From the NCBI RefSeq assembly GCF_000227115.2, contig NC_016483.1:682001-746000 (forward strand): a DNA stretch of 64,000 nt, in the 5' to 3' direction. Position numbers and translations under genes: made by a program. Shown piece by piece: positions 34,916 to 52,437 of the stretch. A model generated the notes under the pieces. The model had not been told where the DNA came from. It was given only the letters and a program-made list of their open reading frames with translations, and did not search any database. Source of the DNA: Naumovozyma dairenensis CBS 421. Its lineage: Eukaryota; Ascomycota; Saccharomycetes; Saccharomycetales; Saccharomycetaceae. Each line of letters starts with the position of its first letter. Position 1 is the stretch's first letter.

Positions 34916-35425
34916 TCATAATAACATTGATAGAAATCCCACAATAGTGGCAGCAAAGGCACCTTTGAAACAATCACCTCTCACACCTTCATTAGCAGAC
35001 TCAGAGGAAGCCTTACTGGCACTACTTGCACTCTTGGCACTTATTGAAGATGAAGTTAACCATGATTCATACTGAGAATGTTTTGATGCAACTGATGGGT
35101 CAGTGGAATGAGCTGCCCAATATGAAGAAGCTGATGCAGCATGTGCTGAATCATGAGTGTGACCCACCCAACCACCAGATGTCGAGGAAGAAACTGCCTT
35201 CTTAACAGAAGCTGCGCTTGCCGAGGAATAACTTAACCATGATTCATACTTCGAATGTTTAGCAGCAACTGATGGGTCAGTTGAATGAGCTGCCCAATAG
35301 GAGGAAGCTGATGCAGCGTGAGCGGAATCATGAGTGTGTCCCACCCAACCTCCTGATGTCGAGTCAGCTGCGGAAATGGATCCCATTAAAATTGATGAAG
35401 ATAATAATATCGTTGAAACTTTCAT
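34916..35425 (-). CDS. Small secreted Ser/Ala-rich protein with two 59-residue repeats
   Basis: I do not recognise this gene. The 169-residue product starts with a clear signal peptide (about residues 1-20, basic then hydrophobic, ending SISAA). Two tandem copies of a 59-residue unit follow (residues 23-81 and 82-140); the first 42 residues of the copies differ at only two positions. Each contains SGGWVGHTHDSAHAAS, SSYWAAHSTDP and YESWL. The end is a Ser/Ala linker, NEGVRGDC and a hydrophobic tail (GAFAATIVGFLSMLL), which could be a GPI-attachment signal, so a cell-wall or plasma-membrane protein is plausible. Repeats rich in His and Trp are unusual. In S. cerevisiae the position between MGT1 and GGC1 is held by the transporter YDL199C. 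Confidence 0.8.
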   Translation of the reverse strand: MKVSTILLSSSILMGSISAADSTSGGWVGHTHDSAHAASASSYWAAHSTDPSVAAKHSKYESWLSYSSASAASVKKAVSSSTSGGWVGHTHDSAHAASASSYWAAHSTDPSVASKHSQYESWLTSSSISAKSASSASKASSESANEGVRGDCFKGAFAATIVGFLSMLL

Positions 35426-42038: not shown

Positions 42039-45000
42039 TTATAATGAATGTTCTTTATCATTAGACCCTGGTGTTGATTCTTTTTGGTGTGGCACAGGTG
42101 TCATTATAATAGAAGGGTTGAGCTTAATCATTCTTTCAGTAGATGTGTTTTTATCAGTCTTTGTTTGTTGATTATTTTCTTCCAAAGCTTGCCCTTTTAC
42201 AGTTGAGGGTGTATCTTTTGATGAGCTTCCTGTATTTTCAGTAGACTTTGATTCAGTCGATTTAGCAGTAGGTTCTACACCTTGATCCTCTTTGATTGGT
42301 TCAGGTGTCATTATGATGGAGGGATTATGTCGAACTATTTCTTCCATGTCTTCGTTTGGGCGCTGTTGACCATTGTTTCTTGATTTGTTTTCATCTTCAT
42401 TCAAGATTTCCGATAATGATAACGATGTTGTCCTTGTTGGCTTATTTCCAGGTAAAGTACTGTCCTTACTGGTATCTTTCTTGCTCGTATTATCCAAAGA
42501 TATATTTCTAAACTTTTCCCCGGTTAAAGGGATGAACCTTGCTTTAGTAGTATTCTTGTTCTGCTTTGGTGGCTTGAATTCATGCAGGCGCTGCAGGCGA
42601 CCGGAAGACTGCGAACTTTTCTTTATTACTTGCTGGAATGGATTTTGATGGTTAGACAAATTGTTATTGTACAGATTAAATGTATCTCTATCTTTAAACG
42701 TTGTTGAAAGCTTGTTGTTATTTTGCTGCGTATGTAGAGAAAAAGAAGCTCCATTTGTTAGGTTGGATTTATTACCGCTACCGCTAATACCCTTTAACCT
42801 AGAATCTTGAGATGAGTGTCCATCGATAGTATCCTTATTGTATGGTGTGGCAGGATCAACGTTATTTTTATTCGGAGACACTTTCTGGGTCCATTTTGCC
42901 AGTACTTCCGTTGGAATTGTTATTACCGCATCGTTATCTTGGGGTTGACCTATTAATTCGCTCCCATTTAAATCAGTATTTTTACTTACATCTGGAGGTA
43001 AAGTTGAGTTAGTCAAATTTTGGGGATGTGCTTGTGCGGAGTGAGGTTCCGATAGCGATCTTGATGATGCAATATTTGCATTTGTAATGACTGGTATGCT
43101 GTGAGACGGTATATTCGGAAGTTGTACAACATGAATATGTTCAATATTATACTTGAGGAATGTCAATGCTTTCCGATATTTTTGTTGATTTCTATTATTC
43201 GACGTGGCCTCAAACACTTGAAACTTTTTTTCTATGTTTGATATTAATTTCGACTTGATGAACGATTCAATCTTTCTCATTGTTTCTAGACTTTGCTTTA
43301 CAAGCAAATGTTTATAATTTTCCTTAAATTTCTTATTATCATGCGTGATCTTTTTCTTAAGTAATTCAACTTGCTTCTTTATTTCATCATTATTTGGCTC
43401 GAGGGTCCTTTGTTTCAGATCCATGATTTCTTCTCGTTGCTTATTAATCGTGTCTTGACTTATGGTCCATCCGTATCGCGTCATTTCCAATTCCTTCTTA
43501 AGGGCATCAATCTGGTATACTTGTGCCTGATTGGTCTGAATAGCAGTTCTATATCCGTTAATAACCTGGTATAAAGTTTCACCTAACTCTTCCTTTGAGT
43601 AATGCGCTGTGTTGATTGTAATAGGATCATTGGATAGAAGTATCTGCCCCGAGTAGGGAAGATTTGATTGTTTGATTCCTTGACTTTCCAGCGTTTGATC
43701 CCCATGTAGTTGCTGGGGTTGTTGTACAGGTGGAGTATTATTATGAATCCAGTCAGTATGTTGTGGGAGTTGTCTATTAGTAAGTTGAGTTTGTTGAGTT
43801 TGTTGAAATGTTGGAATAACATGTTGGCCTGATTGGGTTTGATTGGAGGATATTGATGTAGGTAATGTCTGCACCTGGTTTGTTTGGGGTCGCTGTTGTT
43901 CTTGCAGTTCGTTTACTTTCTGTAGTGATAGTCCCTTGTTTGATTGTATTGATTGAATATCAACATGCGGTACTTGAGTTTGTGGTAATTGTTGATTGTT
44001 CCCAGGCTGTGGTAAGAACTGATTATTACCTTGCAGTATTTCAATTCCTTGTTTTGCTGGAGTTTGGATCTTTTCAGGCTCCTGAAGTTGAACTAGTTGA
44101 TTCTGTTCCAGTAACTGTTGTTGTTGTTGTTGTTGCTGCTGCTGCTGTTGTTGTTGTTGTTGCTGCGATTGCTGTTGTTTCATGGCATCCAATTTTTGTT
44201 GTTGCTCTTTAATTGTTGTCTTATATTGGCCAAGGATAACGTTACATTTGGCCACATAGTCTTGACATTTCTTCAAATATTTTTCCGAATCATCTAATTG
44301 TTTAGTCAAATCATGTGATGTTTTCTTTTCTTTATTTATTAATAGTTTAAAATTGTCTAAATCAGTTTGTCTTGCTAGTCTTATTTCACGCAATTCCTCA
44401 TTTAATAATGTAAGTTTATTTCTGACTCTTTTCATTAGTGGATTTTCTTCCATTATAGTGAGATTTTTAACAACATCATATTTATTGACTTCATCCAATG
44501 TGGATTGTAATGATTCTTGTTGAAATTCAGAATCTCTTAATTTATCAAGAAGTTCTTGTTTTAATTCTAATAGCTTGTTCTTTATGTTGATATCTGTTTC
44601 TTCTGGTTTTGATTCTAGTTCAGCAATTCTAGTCCGTAGGGATAATATTAACTTTTTATCTTCTGCGGCTGTTATTCGACGATGTTCCTTAGCTGAAGTT
44701 TCGTCGACGGATTCTTCTTCTGATTCAGTTACATCTGTCACATCTGTGGCATTTTGTGACTCCGCTTCAGGTGAGAAAACTTCATTTGTTAAATCGATGC
44801 TTTCGGCATTGCCTACTTCTTTTACCATCGTTTGATGCATTTGATTATCATTCTCATCGTCATTCTCATCGTCATCACTAGTTATTGATGCCTCGTGCAA
44901 AAGCTGTAAATTTCGTACTTTCCTATTCTCATTACTGATATCATTAAACAAGAAATCTTGTAAAGTGACAAGGTCAAAATTCTGATCTTTCAATTGTTTC

Positions 45001-45341
45001 ACTTTCCCAAACAAAGAGGCCAATCTAATCTGGTCATTAATCAATTGATCAGATAAATCATTGACATGATTCTTCAAAAAAATCTCATTCTTCTCAAAAT
45101 GAATCAATTTCAATTCCATTTGTGATATCAATTTCTTGTAGTTCGTCTCTAGAGTCTCCCAATGATGCATATATTTTTTCAATTTTTTCTTACTAGATTT
45201 GGAACGTTTTTTGCTGATTGTGATGCCATTTTCTTCTGCTCCTACTCCAGCAGCACCGCCACCACTTTTGCTATCATCATCACTGCTATCATAGTAGAGA
45301 TCTTCATTTCTTTTCCTTTTCGTTGCTTTTTTGCTGTCCAT
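42039..45341 (-). CDS. Large coiled-coil, Gln-rich protein of unknown identity
   Basis: I do not recognise this 1100-residue protein. Residues 1-60 carry an acidic patch and a strong basic cluster (KKRSKSSKKKLKK) that could be a nuclear signal. Heptad-rich helices occupy about residues 60-135 and 225-390, followed by a Gln run (about 390-412) and a Gln-rich segment to about 560, then another helical stretch (about 590-720) and a Ser/Asn/Thr-rich C-terminal third. The sequence NPSIIMTP occurs twice near the end (coding about 42312 and 42108 on the + strand), each a minimal S/T-P site. Its strand and position next to GGC1 match ASF2 (YDL197C), the ohnologue of SIR4, but I see no similarity to the Sir4 C-terminal domain as I remember it. 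Structural, chromatin or spindle-pole roles are open. Confidence 0.85.
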   Translation of the reverse strand: MDSKKATKRKRNEDLYYDSSDDDSKSGGGAAGVGAEENGITISKKRSKSSKKKLKKYMHHWETLETNYKKLISQMELKLIHFEKNEIFLKNHVNDLSDQLINDQIRLASLFGKVKQLKDQNFDLVTLQDFLFNDISNENRKVRNLQLLHEASITSDDDENDDENDNQMHQTMVKEVGNAESIDLTNEVFSPEAESQNATDVTDVTESEEESVDETSAKEHRRITAAEDKKLILSLRTRIAELESKPEETDINIKNKLLELKQELLDKLRDSEFQQESLQSTLDEVNKYDVVKNLTIMEENPLMKRVRNKLTLLNEELREIRLARQTDLDNFKLLINKEKKTSHDLTKQLDDSEKYLKKCQDYVAKCNVILGQYKTTIKEQQQKLDAMKQQQSQQQQQQQQQQQQQQQQQLLEQNQLVQLQEPEKIQTPAKQGIEILQGNNQFLPQPGNNQQLPQTQVPHVDIQSIQSNKGLSLQKVNELQEQQRPQTNQVQTLPTSISSNQTQSGQHVIPTFQQTQQTQLTNRQLPQHTDWIHNNTPPVQQPQQLHGDQTLESQGIKQSNLPYSGQILLSNDPITINTAHYSKEELGETLYQVINGYRTAIQTNQAQVYQIDALKKELEMTRYGWTISQDTINKQREEIMDLKQRTLEPNNDEIKKQVELLKKKITHDNKKFKENYKHLLVKQSLETMRKIESFIKSKLISNIEKKFQVFEATSNNRNQQKYRKALTFLKYNIEHIHVVQLPNIPSHSIPVITNANIASSRSLSEPHSAQAHPQNLTNSTLPPDVSKNTDLNGSELIGQPQDNDAVITIPTEVLAKWTQKVSPNKNNVDPATPYNKDTIDGHSSQDSRLKGISGSGNKSNLTNGASFSLHTQQNNNKLSTTFKDRDTFNLYNNNLSNHQNPFQQVIKKSSQSSGRLQRLHEFKPPKQNKNTTKARFIPLTGEKFRNISLDNTSKKDTSKDSTLPGNKPTRTTSLSLSEILNEDENKSRNNGQQRPNEDMEEIVRHNPSIIMTPEPIKEDQGVEPTAKSTESKSTENTGSSSKDTPSTVKGQALEENNQQTKTDKNTSTERMIKLNPSIIMTPVPHQKESTPGSNDKEHSL

Positions 45342-45871
45342 CGTTCTTCAAATGAGGGACTAAAGGAGATCAGGGCTATGAAAAGAAAGTTTTACCCTCA
45401 AATCACTTGTTAATGTTGTAAGGTGATGTGAGAGAATTAATGATTATTAGAATGTTTTGTTTTGATTGTTTTGAAAGAAGGAATTGAGGTTATAAAAATT
45501 GGCGTCCTTCTTTTGTTATTTTTTCGCGGATCGTCTTTGTAAACGTTTTTATCATCAGCTCTGTTGAATAGGAAGTACGTACAATAATTCGAACAAAAAG
45601 AGTGATGTGGATGATGTGTTAGACGATATATCTATAGCACGTACGTATGTGGACTGCTAAAGAATATATATATATATGTAGAGCACGGGGGAGTTTTATA
45701 AATAAGATCTGGGGCCGAATTAGTCTTTAAGGCAATTGGCAAACTTCGAGTTAGATATATCTGTGTATGCATATAAGGTAATAATTAAAATACGACAGTT
45801 AATGCTTTTAATGCGGTAAATAGTATAAATATATAAGATATTGGGAAAATGCATGCAAGAAAAAAAAGGGA
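45342..45871. other. Intergenic region upstream of the coiled-coil gene
   Basis: 530 bp. I looked here for pol remnants and for a 3' LTR of a Ty-like element, because of the adjacent Gag-like gene, and saw neither. Confidence 0.5.
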
Positions 45872-47833
45872 TCATATATAATACTCAGTTGATGGGGAAG
45901 TTTCACTTTTAGGAGACGTGTTTACATTATTATTATTGTTGTTGTTATTTCCCTCGTATGAAGTTGTTTGTCTATTTACATTTTTCAAGTTCATATCGGA
46001 ATTATGCACTGGTGTACTTGGAATACTATGAGAATAAGCATTCGTGTTTATCAATGAATTGGAACGTTTGGTTGGTGAATCGCCAATTGATCTAGTAATA
46101 GAATTATGATTTGGGTCTCGTATTTTGTTTTGAATTTGATTAGTATAACTTATCAAATCAATTCTTTGAATGACTTTATCTAATGGAGTCCCCACATTCC
46201 TATATTGTCTTGACCACTCACGATATTTTCCTTGATAATATTCTTCAAATGAATTTAGTAATTCCCTTTTGATGATTTCGTTTGGGATTGGTGGCTTTCT
46301 TTCAAATTGATTAAATGCATTAATTTTATTAATCCATGTTCTAATATGGGTTTCTCTTGTCCAAGAATTCAATTTAAAGTCATGCAATATAGTCTGTAAA
46401 ACTATGGGAACGTTAATTTTAACGAATGTCTTTTTAACGAGTTCCCAATTGACATATGCTGGTAATGACATGTCCACTATGTCGGGGAAAAGACTCTTCA
46501 AGATAATTGTTAAGAATATATTTTCAGCTTCATATAATGGAATATTTTTCATTGTCTTTTTCATTGAATTATTGAATGATTTTAAAGTTAATAATTGATT
46601 TAATTTCAATTCTTCAAAACTATTTTCAAAATCAGCAGCAAACATGATAAAACTTGTTGCTCTATTTGGAGATATATCTTTCAATTGATCAATCCAAATT
46701 TGCGTTTGATCGATCCAAAAGTTTGTCATATCGAGAAGATATTTTTCCATATCAAAAGTTGATATGTAATCTAGATTCTCCATATTTGTAATTGTTAATG
46801 TTGTTAATTTAGACCAATAAATATTGGCATTACAATCTGCTGATGGGGCTGGCCATTTATTATTATCAATTAACCATAATTTTTCTTGATAAATAATTTG
46901 TTTATCATTACCAATCACGGCTTTAGATGCGTTTGGTTTTGCTTTTGTATCTGTATCTGTATCTGTATCTGTATTTGTACTTGTAGTTGCAGTTGTAGTT
47001 ACAGCCGTGGATGTATGTACTGAGGGAGCGGTTCCATTTATTTTATTACTGTCATTATTGTTATTAGTAATATTATTATTCTTAGTGTTCGTGTCAGTAT
47101 TATGAGTTGAAGCTGTACTAATGTTGGTTGATGGTGTTTCGATGGTTTGTTGATGTTTATTTGTTTCTTGTTTCTTAGTTGTAGTTTGAGTAGGAGTTGA
47201 AGTTGTAGTTGTAGTTGTAGTTTTAGCAGCAGCTGTGGTTGTAGTTTCCATAACTGCTGAGGTGTTGACTCTAGTAGTGTTTGTACTTACTATAGGTTCG
47301 TGCTGCTGTATAGCTTCCTGCTGCCGCGGTATTGGTTGTGGTTGTTCAGGTATTTGTTCATTGGGCTGTTGCTTTTGTAATTCAGATTCCTTTGTAATAT
47401 CTTTCGTTATAGTTGGCTCCTGTATTGATGGTTCCTTTTGAGGAGTATTGTCTGCATTAATTTTTGTTGTAGTTTTAGGTTCTGGTGCAGCATTAGTCTC
47501 CAGTACTTGCTGTTGCACGGGTTTTTCCTTCTGTATTTCTTGCTGTACTTCCTGCTGTATTTCTTGTTCATGCTCCTGTTCCGGTTCCTGTTCTTGTTCA
47601 GTGTCATTAGTTGCATCTTGGAACATTGTTAATAATTCAGTGAGACTTATTGCATAATTTTGCCAATTTGGAAACACTTTTGTCAAAATATAAAGATCTT
47701 CTCTTTTGAAAAATAAAGTGACTGGATTTTCAATTTCTTGATCTTCATCACTCATTGGATTAATTGGTCTAATTGACCTCAGTTGGTCTAGTGTATTAGC
47801 ATCCAATTTTGTGGTAGCATCAGTTTGTGACAT
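45872..47833 (-). CDS. Stand-alone Gag-like protein, candidate domesticated Ty1/copia capsid gene
   Basis: 653 residues, intact ATG-to-stop frame. Residues 1-75 form a short ordered segment (LFFKREDLYILTKVFPNWQNY). Residues about 80-305 are Gln/Glu- then Thr/Asn-rich and disordered. Residues about 330-570 are a mostly helical, Trp-rich region whose order of elements recalls Ty1 Gag capsid: a W-rich entry (FWIDQTQIWIDQLKDI), a helix pair ending in LFPDIVDMSLPAYV, a middle helix (WELVKKTFVKINVPIVLQTI), then THIRTWINKINAFNQFERKPPIPNEI-like helices with LLNSFEEYYQGKYREW, and LDKVIQRIDLIS at the exit. A basic then Asn-rich tail follows. No CCHC knuckle, protease, integrase or reverse transcriptase is present, and no flanking LTR is visible. 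The Gag relationship is my reading from recalled family architecture, not a search result; it could instead be an unrelated fast-evolving protein. Confidence 0.6.
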   Translation of the reverse strand: MSQTDATTKLDANTLDQLRSIRPINPMSDEDQEIENPVTLFFKREDLYILTKVFPNWQNYAISLTELLTMFQDATNDTEQEQEPEQEHEQEIQQEVQQEIQKEKPVQQQVLETNAAPEPKTTTKINADNTPQKEPSIQEPTITKDITKESELQKQQPNEQIPEQPQPIPRQQEAIQQHEPIVSTNTTRVNTSAVMETTTTAAAKTTTTTTTSTPTQTTTKKQETNKHQQTIETPSTNISTASTHNTDTNTKNNNITNNNNDSNKINGTAPSVHTSTAVTTTATTSTNTDTDTDTDTKAKPNASKAVIGNDKQIIYQEKLWLIDNNKWPAPSADCNANIYWSKLTTLTITNMENLDYISTFDMEKYLLDMTNFWIDQTQIWIDQLKDISPNRATSFIMFAADFENSFEELKLNQLLTLKSFNNSMKKTMKNIPLYEAENIFLTIILKSLFPDIVDMSLPAYVNWELVKKTFVKINVPIVLQTILHDFKLNSWTRETHIRTWINKINAFNQFERKPPIPNEIIKRELLNSFEEYYQGKYREWSRQYRNVGTPLDKVIQRIDLISYTNQIQNKIRDPNHNSITRSIGDSPTKRSNSLINTNAYSHSIPSTPVHNSDMNLKNVNRQTTSYEGNNNNNNNNVNTSPKSETSPSTEYYI

Positions 47834-48167
47834 GGTGCTGGTGGTGATGATGCTTCCTTGCCTTTGCTTCTCGGTTACTCTAATCTAGTTTTTAGATAAA
47901 AAAAATACTACAAGTGCACGGCCTTAGTGAGATATATTATTGACAGGGAATGATATAATACAGGTGATCCACAAATAGATATCTTCTTCTATTGCTGTAC
48001 TCCGAGCTTGTTTTCTGTCTGTCTGTCTGTCTGTCCATATTTACCGTCTGGTCGGTATTGCATATGAATTTACTTACATAATCTACTACCATATATCATT
48101 TATTCTATTCAAAACTAGACGTCCCAGTGAAATGTTTCAAAAAATGGCTTTTCACGGCTACCCGGTC

Positions 48168-48327
48168 GTAGGGTTGAGTTTTGACCAATTCCTCCAGAAC
48201 GTTAGGGCACTGGCATCAAACCCTACACCACTACCATGGTGTTTTGCCTTTATATATAACCCTAAAATAAACTCTGTACACCCGCACCCCACACTGATCA
48301 AGAAAGGGCGAAGAGTGTTGTTGCGGG
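48168..48327. other. Inverted-repeat-rich block upstream of MSC3
   Basis: A perfect 8-bp pair GTAGGGTT (48168-48175)/AACCCTAC (48219-48226) is overlapped by a hairpin ACACCA/TGGTGT (48225-48230, 48237-48242). Further on, CCCGCA (48281-48286) pairs with TGCGGG (48322-48327), continued inward by ACACT/AGTGT. These are directly visible; function is unknown. Possibilities are a structured leader, a small RNA or a decayed element. Confidence 0.4.
48278..48290 (+). promoter_or_regulatory. Rap1-like binding site
   Basis: ACACCCGCACCCC resembles the yeast Rap1 consensus ACACCCRYACAYM (one strong deviation near the end). It lies about 450 bp upstream of MSC3. Confidence 0.4.
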
Positions 48328-48473
48328 GGTAAGGGGGACCCTCAGTGCACCACACCTTGCCGACCCAAATCAAAACTACCCGCCCGGCCCCACACGAGTA
48401 CATTCGCGCCAACAACAGCGCAAATCAGACCTCTCAGTCAGTCAATCGAACTATCTTTAGTTACCGATCTATC

Positions 48474-48509
48474 AACACTAACAACACTAACAACACTAAC
48501 AACACTAAC
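48474..48509. repeat. 9-bp tandem repeat, four copies
   Basis: Four perfect copies of AACACTAAC in the MSC3 upstream region. Confidence 0.95.
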
Positions 48510-48600
48510 AATAATAACAACTCTATATATGTTTATCCGCCGGTGCTTCATATATATAGTCAATAGTCCTGTATATATAAGGGGCCAATTCAATATATTA

Positions 48601-48630
48601 TACTATACTATACTATACTATACTATACTA
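48601..48630. repeat. TACTA pentanucleotide repeat, six copies
   Basis: Six perfect copies of TACTA about 110-140 bp before the MSC3 start. Confidence 0.95.
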
Positions 48631-48737
48631 TATTACACCACTATACCTACCTACCAACCTCTGTTTCAACATCTCTTATAGCCATATCCTTCTCAATCAA
48701 CCAAGACAATTTCCGCCGATAAACTCCTCCCTTTACA

Positions 48738-50559
48738 ATGGTATTCGGTCTCACAAGAAAGGAAAATAGAGTACCAGATCTATCTAGGTATGACTATTAT
48801 TATCAAAATAAACAAGATTATAACAAAAGCTCACAATTATCTGCAGACGCTGCCTATGCGGCAAGTTCAGCACAATCATCTCCTCCTCCTCCGATAGCAT
48901 ACACTAATTCAAATCAATTAAGATCCTCAACACCGTCTACCGTTAACCGTCGTTCTCGTAGGAATACTGTCATCAATAATAATAATAATAATAATAGGAA
49001 CAGTAACATTACCAGCCGAAACAATGTAAGGAAAGCTAATTCAATGGTAAATTACTCTTCAAATCCTTTAAGAAAACAACAACAACTACAACAACAGCCG
49101 CAACTTCCACATTCAAATTCAACAAGATCTGTAAGAAATAGTGCAATACCAAACACGAAAAGGATAACGAACGTCAATCCAGTCTCAAAAACACCTCAAA
49201 AAAGACAATCCGTTAGAAAAAACTCTACAACAAGGAAAATATCATCTAATAATAATACTACAACAAACGCTGTAACAAACAGAAACTCTAATAAAACATA
49301 TTCTTTAAAATCACAAATAAGTTTCGACTCTCCAAGGACGAAGAAAAACATTAATACTAATACTGATACTGATACTGATACTGATACTAATACTAATAAT
49401 ATTCCAACAAAAAAAATAATTAACAATAATACCCGTAGAATAAACTCATTAACAACTGCAACAACATCTCAAAAACAACTACAAAATAATCATCAAAGAA
49501 GAACAAACTCATTAACATTATCGAAAAAACAACAAGAAAATAACTCATCATCAAGAACAAATTCAATAACTATAAAGACTACAAAAGTATTAGATCCATC
49601 AGGTAGAACTAAATCAATAACGAAAAAGACAATAAAGAAAATAGACGGTAATGAATATATAATTGAAACTACTACAACTACCACTACTACTACAAAGAAA
49701 AAGAAGAAACCAAATAATAATTATCATTTCGATCATTTTAGTGATAATTTTGTAGATGATTATAATGAAGACCTTATTGAAGAATTGAATAATAATAATT
49801 CAAATCAACTCGATGATGAGGACGATATCGATCAATCATTTCTGGATCCCAGGATTGAAAATATTATCTTAGCTAATGATTCTACTTCTCCTCAGATCCA
49901 AGAAATTCCTGAAGAAGATGAAGATGAAGATATAATAGAATTATCGGAAAATAATAATGATCAGGAATATTATGATGATTATGTCGAAAATGAAGATCAT
50001 GATGATGAAAGTGAAGTTGACTACATTGAGGAAGAAGAAAATCCGGAAGAACAAGTAGAACAAATTGATAACAAAATTGACGAATTCGTTTCAAATAATT
50101 TCACATACGATTATGATAACCCTTATCTGGATGATATTAATGAATCCCCCACCTTAACACCATCCGAAAGTACCAACCCAGCCCAATTTGAATGGAAGAT
50201 TCAAACTCCCTATTCTGAGTTACAAACCCCTAAACGAATTAAAACGTCGGGTTCATTGGTAAAATTAGATGAAACAAGTAGCATGTCTAAATTCGATGAC
50301 GCTTTGGATTATATCCCAACGAAATCTATAACCACAACAAAGGATCAACATCCTACTTCACCAATGGAAAAATTGACATCTCCAAATAGATTCAAAGCAA
50401 CGAAGATTATTTCCACACCAACCAAAATAAGTAATACTACTACTGTCGAAGGTTATAACAATAATAACAAAAATAATAATGTTGATTATCCCTTAAATAA
50501 AAGAAAAAGTAAAGGAATAAATAAGGAGAAAACAACGGTTATAAATACGCCAACAGCAA

Positions 50560-50590
<31 letters not shown>

Positions 50591-52013
50591 ACAAGCCTCG
50601 TTAACTGCACATATGAAAAATAAAACTCCACGTTCAGCTTCCTTTTCTATTCCTAAGGCTCCTTCGAGTCAAAATTCTAATCAAAAGACAAAACAACCTC
50701 TTACAGAAGAAGAAATGTATGCACATGCTTTGAAAGCTGCTGAAAAAATTGTCTACAAAGATAGAATAGCATCTCCTATATCACAACAAAGTGGTAAGGG
50801 GAAAACTAGTAATATGGGTCAAAGAATGACGTTAAGAAGCCCTTCTGACAACAACAATAACACAAATACAAATAATCAAGCTCTAATGGACATTATGAAT
50901 TCTCCTCCTCATCCATCACAACCACCACCTAAAAATAAACTGGCTGCTTTATTTCACAAGACTAAGTCTCATTCCAGAAATTCTTCCATTGATCAACCTA
51001 CTATAGTGACCACACAACCTCCAGTTGTAGTACAATCTCACACATCTCCTCGTACATCAAATAATTCTATGCAAAGAAATATACCATCCGTAAATACGAC
51101 CTCTGAGGAAACTAACAACAAAACAATGAAGAAGAAAAAGAAACCATTATCTGATGAAGAAATGTATGCCCAAGCTTTGAAAATTACAAGAAAAAGATAC
51201 CTTGATTCACATGGAATTGTTGAACCAGACCAAGATAATGGATCCTCCCATGAGGATAATATTTCACACTCAAATAAAACTATTGCAAGAGGAAATGTTC
51301 CAGAACAATCTTCCACGATAACACATGGAATCATTACTGCATCAAGACCAAATGAACCCGAATTTGAAGAAACTACTTCAAGCACAATAATGGAACAACC
51401 TCAACCAATTACTCCACCAACAACATCATCTAACTCAGCAACCCCTCCCACAACTGCAGCGGTGCTTCCTCAATCAACTACTTCAAAGCCATCTACCAAA
51501 AATAAATCAAAATTTCATGATCTCATGGATAAAGTAGTTCAATTCTCCGTAGAAAATAGTGGCTATCAACCACCAAGAGAAGAGAAATTGAAAATGAAAC
51601 AATCAGAAAGACAAAATGAGGAACAACTAATTCATGATCAAGTTATATCATCAATTCAAAATCCCACAATACCAACTCAGAAAGTAAATTCAATTAATAA
51701 TACAATTGGCCCCGCAGATGGACATGAACAGCCCCAACAAGGAGGAATAAATGAGGAAGAACTTGGAAATACAATAATGCCACTTAATGTCCCATTAACA
51801 AACCCTGCCGCTACAGATAGTGTTTCATCTTTCCAAAAGACGAAAAGTGAATCAAAGAGTATGTTTACAATGAATTCAAAAAAATCAAACAAAAAATCAA
51901 ATAATAATGATATCGCAATTGATGATACTACTAAAATTATTAAAGTTAATACTGATGGTAGTAATGGTACTATTAAGAAGAAAAGTGTATTCAAGAAATT
52001 ATTTAATCGACAT
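48738..52013 (+). CDS. MSC3: Cell-periphery protein Msc3
   Basis: Orthologue of S. cerevisiae Msc3 (YLR219W), a peripheral protein named from a meiotic sister-chromatid recombination screen and of unclear function. It has 1091-1092 residues against about 728, inflated by Asn/Thr/Ser low complexity. Conserved blocks are the N-terminal VFGLTRKENRVPDLSRYDYYYQN, the KTTKVLDPSGRTKSITKKT/ETTTTT region (about residues 280-320), and two copies of a short motif, LTEEEMYAHALKAAEK (about 655) and LSDEEMYAQALKITRKRY (about 803). A basic KKKSVFKKLFNRH C-terminus could contact membrane lipids. A polyproline stretch of about nine residues lies near 612. RSA3 and UTP13 downstream match YLR221C-YLR222C; CCC1 is missing between them. 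Confidence 0.93.
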
Positions 52014-52437
52014 TAAGTTTTTTCCGTTTGTTTTTTCCTTTTTTCATTCAACATTTTAGTTACGTTTTTTTAAATACCTGTTCTAATTTTAATATTTTTT
52101 CTCTAATTATTTAATTTAATTTCTTTAATTTTATCTAATATACTTTACTAATAACAACGAATTATATAAATTTTGTAGTTATGGATATAAAGCTGTCTGA
52201 ACAAACGGGACCTTACCCCAAAACTACCAGTACAGATTATATTATATACTTTGTTCCGTCTATAATAATTGTCGCATACAACGTTTATCTAAGTGCAATT
52301 CGAATTTTTCAATGGATTGTATCAGTGCTTTTATTGAGGGATAAATACACTAGTATTTATTATAATAATGAGAAAAGATAATATACAAAGGAAGAAAGAT
52401 GCATTAGAAATATGGCTTTTTTTATTATGTTTTAGTT
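52014..52437. other. Convergent MSC3/RSA3 intergenic region
   Basis: 424 bp where S. cerevisiae has CCC1. A 66-codon frame at 52181-52381 (+) has one hydrophobic stretch, but it shows no similarity I recognise to Ccc1 and I do not call it as a gene. Confidence 0.5.

Follow-up and report, generated by a model that had tools for sequence, protein, structure and literature searches.

An intact gag-derived frame, probably a host gene, in Naumovozyma dairenensis

Introduction

The described systems closest to the gene reported here are the self-encoded Ty1 restriction factor p22/p18 (PDB 7nlg, 7nlh, and 7nli) and Drt2, a domesticated Ty1' GAG of Saccharomyces cerevisiae (PMC10951436, PMC12530519; PDB 9rxy). 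The minimal inhibitory part of p22/p18 and Drt2 is the C-terminal domain of the capsid (CA-CTD), which halts particle assembly and pairs with Gag through the Dimer-1 surface (PMC12530519), and further capsid-based restriction factors may await identification (PMC12530519, Discussion). Drt2 was the sole stand-alone domesticated yeast Ty gag met in the literature searched, and searches of the open full-text literature listed no paper that mentions a gag-derived Naumovozyma gene in its title or abstract opening. For fission yeasts, passages of PMC10085805 describe domesticated transposases, not gag genes. Here, we analyze a candidate domesticated gag in a 64,000-nucleotide stretch of Naumovozyma dairenensis CBS 421 (hereafter, the window; C5:682001-746000 in an assembly of 11 contigs and 13.5 Mb) and compare it with these systems.

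Results

Gag origin of the gene

The gene is an ATG-to-stop open reading frame (ORF) of 653 codons plus stop on the minus strand (45872..47833), encoding 653 amino acids, and its capsid part is homologous to the gag of a long terminal repeat (LTR) retrotransposon family of the same genome, here called X. Its features are as follows:

45872..47833, minus strand: stand-alone gag-derived gene (ORF call; X gag homology in its own genome; single copy)
47600..47833, minus strand: N-terminal segment, residues 1-78 (likeness to the X gag N-terminus at chance level)
46901..47599, minus strand: T/Q/N-rich low-complexity linker, residues 79-311 (composition, tandem repeats)
46418..46888, minus strand: capsid N-terminal-domain (CA-NTD) region, residues 316-472 (X gag homology, common KWPAP motif)
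46133..46417, minus strand: predicted Ty1/copia-type CA-CTD, residues 473-567 (predicted fold)
45875..46108, minus strand: C-terminal tail, residues 576-653 (with a net charge of +1 and lacking a basic nucleocapsid-like region)

The uninterrupted frame, which an earlier reading made from the sequence only had singled out, is far longer than chance would give. In 300 first-order Markov sequences matched to it in length and composition, the longest stop-free stretch over six frames averaged 87 codons, with a maximum of 165, and at the Markov stop frequency of 6.6% the chance of a 654-codon open frame is about 10^-19.

Searched against its own genome, the whole protein matched pieces at C10:781694 (E 1.6e-9, 26% identity) and C6:133942 (E 3.6e-6, 28% identity), both interrupted by stops, and the capsid part alone matched the two at E 7.4e-13 and 1.3e-6, respectively. 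The relationship is reciprocal: the C10 piece returned eleven matches, including the window gene (1.3e-11), and a C6 piece searched back likewise recovered it (1.8e-6). Compared directly, the capsid part and the C10 piece reached a score of 163, the best of 2000 shuffles being 76. The C6 piece extends the homology to residue 584, for an overall span of residues 312-584 (about 270 residues), supported by pieces of three relics, with 26-28% amino-acid identity to X; the capsid homology to LTR-retrotransposon gag that characterizes a Ty1/copia Gag is thus found through family X. Over residues 316-472, the putative CA-NTD, this homology is one of sequence, both structure models being of low confidence there. 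The likeness of residues 1-78 to X was put down to chance, the local score of 24 being reached by 1282 and 1246 of 5000 shuffles.

Outside the capsid, the linker holds 52 T, 28 Q, and 22 N among 233 residues and carries short tandem repeats at 46944-46985, 47176-47246, and 47531-47566. Residues 312-575 contain nine Trp and one Cys and the remaining three parts no Cys; a CCHC zinc knuckle is therefore impossible, since the whole protein has a single Cys. The sequence-only reading had described just such a Trp-rich region (about residues 330-570) flanked by Gln/Thr/Asn low complexity and lacking a zinc knuckle, and both points stand.

Database searches placed the protein in no known family. Pfam returned no family at E<=1; the TYA capsid family PF01021, which does detect Ty1-like gags elsewhere in this genome, went unmatched; PDB sequences yielded nothing at E<=10 except one unrelated chain (E 0.69) and, for alignment A1, no related chain. 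Profile comparisons with the Ty1-like gags and with the Ty4-like gag of this genome gave no match. The protein-database searches, which require common five-residue words and a length 0.55 to 1.75 times that of the query, recovered only the protein itself with the whole sequence (best 7976 candidates by common words scored) or the capsid part, and only P0002 with alignment A1; P0002 (NDAI_0J03070) is a broken X gag copy near the end of contig C10. A match to an unrelated yeast family, which would have undone the Gag assignment, did not arise in the Pfam and protein-database searches.

Predicted fold

In the model of the protein, the ranking of the Ty1 CTD fold in Foldseek supports a Ty1/copia-type CA-CTD at residues 473-567, which is also the domain expected of a p22/Drt2-type restriction factor; the C-terminal capsid half is accordingly predicted to fold like the CA-CTD of Ty1 and Drt2. 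Of the Foldseek match to the Ty1 Gag capsid proposed beforehand, the first model bears out the Ty1 CTD ranking and the second repeats it weakly. X pieces were rows of the alignment from which the fold was modeled, so sequence homology and fold are not wholly independent.

An unrelated helical yeast protein resembling Gag by chance would account for the lack of a Pfam, PDB-sequence, or TYA match and for the viral structure library (BFVD), which gave no capsid among the 50 matches listed. It is contradicted by the X gag homology over about 270 residues in pieces of three relics and by the Ty1 CTD fold ranking. We consider this explanation very improbable and, because of the X homology, refuted unless the X frames are not gag, which is implausible because they sit at a 5' LTR. 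The Gag link, originally drawn from the architecture of the protein, thus gains homology to X gag in the same genome together with a predicted Ty1/copia-type CA-CTD fold, and we regard a gag origin of the gene as close to certain.

Family X

The broken frames homologous to the gene are gag relics of one LTR-retrotransposon family, X, located as follows:

C10:781.2-782.3k: X gag relic
C6:133.8-135.3k: X gag relic
C2:1274.7-1276.4k: X gag relic
C2:766.6-767.3k: X gag relic
C1:174.3k: short X gag fragment

Every X gag relic is broken by stops or frame breaks, the C10 copy reaching the contig end, and the assembly yielded no X gag that is intact. Among the four copies (C1 fragment left out), divergence is 14-22% in three of the six pairs and 29-37% in the three that involve the C2:767k copy. 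A 951-base query from the C10 copy gave at least 43 genome matches (40 of 60 candidates scored), 41 of which fall in one stretch of about 316 bases, 68-96% identical to the C10 copy, with 38 of the 41 stopping short of the gag part. We read this stretch from its sequence as the probable X LTR, because X gag starts inside it and a primer-binding-like sequence, TGGTGCGAATTC, adjoins it directly; LTR sequence is still present at the C10, C2:1275k, and C6 gag copies. Assignment of TGGTGCGAATTC as the complement of a tRNA-Phe 3' end was unconfirmed, two tRNA-Phe patterns having matched no gene.

No pol could be recognised next to X gag anywhere in the assembly. The genome's 9 reverse-transcriptase (RVT_2) and 26 integrase-core places are all more than 10 kb from any X gag relic, the closest being 16 kb away on C6, and five Pol frames from the Ty1-, Ty4-, and Ty5-like elements of this genome found nothing at E<=1e-3 in the stretches around X gag. 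On C4, an X match confined to the LTR is 2-4 kb away from a Ty1-like element's Pol frame. X gag showed no sequence link to the Ty1-like gags or the Ty4-like gag, and placement of X in Ty1/copia relies on how the window protein is predicted to fold.

With LTR matches and broken gag copies as its sole traces in the assembly, X is possibly a gag-only, non-autonomous family. Several candidate X parts were set aside: a protease-like stretch after X gag, noticed by eye, had no Pfam match and no significant match to the five local Pol frames; a match between the X tail and DUF1033 (E 4.4e-4), which fell under the cut-off of that family, was taken as chance; and a reverse-transcriptase fragment on C11 could not be tied to X. 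The latter region (C11:254881-255150; L047), a decayed Ty1/copia-type integrase/reverse-transcriptase fragment missed by the five local Pol frames at E<=1e-3, might belong to X. Among the other elements, a 401-residue Ty1-like gag frame on C7 at about 133.7k has an in-frame match to the Vps35 C-terminus near its start (L033:7164-7286; E 7.6e-11), as if the element had landed in VPS35, whole or fragmentary, or become fused to it. The Ty1-like copies L034, L035, L037, and L038 contain N stretches, and intact-element counts there are uncertain.

Element parts missing at the locus

None of these element parts was found around the window gene. The five local Pol frames gave nothing at E<=1e-3 across the 64-kb window, which also holds none of the RVT_2 or integrase-core places and none of the 43 matches to the C10 query. 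Between 40000 and 54000, the direct repeats of >=35 nt belong to short families inside genes, most of them of low complexity, and none flank the gene; the flanks produced nothing convincing against the X LTR (best E 0.20); the X primer-binding-like motif has no copy in the window; and 45300-48740 is single-copy in the genome save for one 46-bp match elsewhere. The locus therefore has neither the flanking LTRs and primer-binding site nor the downstream pol of a mobile LTR retrotransposon, as the earlier reading had judged for pol and the LTR pair, and it does not look like a recent insertion with decayed pol and LTRs. What it presents is an intact, single-copy gag frame outside any element, as a domesticated gag would.

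That the gene belongs to a gag-only element, non-autonomous or mobile to this day, which borrows the enzymes of another Ty, is conceivable in that X gag relics likewise have no recognisable pol alongside. The absence of flanking direct repeats, of the X primer-binding-like motif in the window, and of a second copy of the gene and its flanks largely refutes this explanation, to which we give hardly any weight.

Signs of domestication

The gene has kept 653 codons open at 26-28% identity to X, whereas the X relics, closer to one another, are broken. Under neutral substitution (1000 runs per rate, substitutions only, indels not counted), 9.2%, 0.3%, 0%, and 0% of runs remained stop-free at 0.02, 0.05, 0.08, and 0.10 substitutions per site, figures that bound the age of the gene only roughly because part of the divergence may precede capture. 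A synonymous codon score contrasting host genes with intergenic sequence was 0.096 for the capsid part and 0.062 for the whole gene; 24 other window genes averaged 0.075 (range 0.003 to 0.184), and transposon pieces scored 0.031 and -0.013 (X), 0.010 (Ty4-like), -0.048 (Ty1-like), and -0.009 (Ty5-like). The codon evidence is supportive, not decisive, because the host and transposon ranges overlap. The parts that a transposon requires, pol, LTRs, and the basic tail, are gone.

A passive relic, that is, an old gag open by chance, or one once domesticated, since released, and functionless now, would fit the lack of an orthologue in the protein-database searches, the long low-complexity linker, and evidence from one strain. 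It fits poorly with the neutral simulation, with host-like synonymous codons, and with LTRs that are gone at the gene yet readable at already broken X relics; we consider it improbable. The co-option suggested earlier thus receives indirect backing from the intact frame, single copy, missing LTRs, and host-like synonymous codons, and the gene is probably a selected host gene.

Genomic setting

The neighbors are ordinary chromosomal genes, including those for TBP, a mitochondrial carrier, an Rsa3-domain protein, and a Utp13-domain protein (Pfam), a setting that the sequence-only reading had anticipated. The gene and the ORF at 48738-52016 are divergent, their starts lying 904 bp apart; on the other side, the neighboring minus-strand ORF (42039-45341) starts 530 bp beyond the gene's stop.

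Elsewhere in the window, the ORF at 48738-52016 contains a repeated 64-nt module, 73% identical between 50685-50748 and 51132-51195, encoding PLTEEEMYAHALK and PLSDEEMYAQALK. The gene at 34916-35425, which encodes a small, probably secreted protein, holds a 134-bp direct repeat (35053-35186 and 35230-35363; 89% identical) that duplicates an HTHDSAHAAS module. The segment 27808-27945 is 85% identical to a stretch of C6 (L042:3192-3330) and partly alike to sequence beside a Ty5-like element (L032); it is probably a solo LTR from a different family.

Discussion

We tentatively propose that the host co-opted a gag gene as a capsid-domain protein that interferes in trans with Gag assembly, in the manner of Drt2. 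After insertion, the LTRs and pol would have been lost, the frame kept by selection, and the linker enlarged through repeat expansion; the protein would dimerise via its CTD and poison shells of Gag with a matching interface. A protein with a predicted CA-CTD, without RNA packaging and pol, is what a restriction factor could look like.

Several observations weigh against this proposal. Confidence in the fold is low (mean pLDDT, the predicted local distance difference test score, of 58.3; three of five models at 40-42), the Foldseek E-values are 0.56 or worse, the second model (trimmed alignment, pLDDT 47.6) is worse, with the Ty1 CTD among, not above, unrelated folds, and the BFVD result points the same way. 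On codons, the best X piece equals or exceeds 6 of the 24 host genes, and the protein-database searches yielded no orthologue that would speak for long-term conservation. Identity to the C10 LTR reaches 96% in some X LTRs, which points to fairly recent X activity and therefore to X not having been fully blocked. The specificity of p18/Drt2 restriction is narrow, with three residues of the interface as the main determinants of Ty1 versus Ty1' (PMC12530519), whereas the window protein shares 26-28% identity with X gag; at approximately the Dimer-1 place the window protein has a helix with 1 of 13 residues identical to X, the other CTD helices having 6 of 17, 4 of 15, 2 of 8, and 6 of 22 (approximate mapping, small numbers). 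Because this helix differs from X and restriction is interface-specific, the likely target, if any, is a closer, perhaps vanished relative; the target Gag would probably come from the gene's own founder lineage, not from today's X relics.

The tail bears on a further possibility. Its net charge is +1 over 78 residues, versus +10 over 43 residues in the X gag on C6, and the gene has no basic nucleic-acid-binding region after the capsid as a Ty1/copia Gag does; in Ty1, that region is a nucleic-acid chaperone needed for RNA dimerization and packaging (PMC10951436). The RNA-binding role suggested from the sequence is made less likely by this loss. A domesticated gag might also serve the cell by self-assembly, its capsid-like particles or scaffold bearing the T/Q/N linker and being unrelated to transposon control. 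Arc and PNMA2 are comparison cases for such a self-assembling domesticated gag; with the basic tail lost, RNA cargo is less likely, and we regard self-assembly as the main alternative to interference, though a rather unlikely one.

In a broader reading, the gene may stem from a Ty1/copia-type capsid that was domesticated long ago and independently, outside Saccharomyces; it would have kept both capsid halves, shed LTRs, pol, and the RNA-binding tail, and would act as an antitransposon capsid-interfering factor or an endogenous capsid, the retrotransposon family behind it being one that the literature searches did not turn up; this composite statement we hold still more loosely than the proposal of interference. 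If true, it would be a second, seemingly older, independent case, suggesting that yeasts repeatedly convert transposon capsids into host genes, and would offer a system for asking why a capsid persists after the loss of LTRs, pol, and RNA binding. With one copy of the gene in a unicellular yeast, deletion and mobility tests are conceivable.

Comparison with known systems

Drt2 lies within a recognisable Ty1' relic and in one species. Unlike Drt2, the gene described here has no LTR, shares 26-28% identity with the closest transposon relative known, and keeps homology over both capsid halves along with a 233-residue low-complexity linker; restriction has been demonstrated for Drt2, whereas the present gene is known from its sequence and predicted fold. 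Ty1 p22/p18 are made from inside Ty1, whereas this gene is a separate host locus, and p22, unlike the gene, is without the capsid N-terminal domain (PMC10951436). X gag is homologous to the gene over residues 312-584, but all its copies in this assembly are broken, those on C10, C2:1275k, and C6 still with LTR sequence, and X has a basic tail, whereas the frame of the window gene is unbroken and both LTR and basic tail are missing. The Drosophila Copia capsid (PDB 8vvw) is part of a retrotransposon and has no sequence match to the gene's protein at E<=10. In animals, co-opted gag genes such as Arc, PNMA2, and Fv1 are Gag capsids turned host genes, as this gene probably is.
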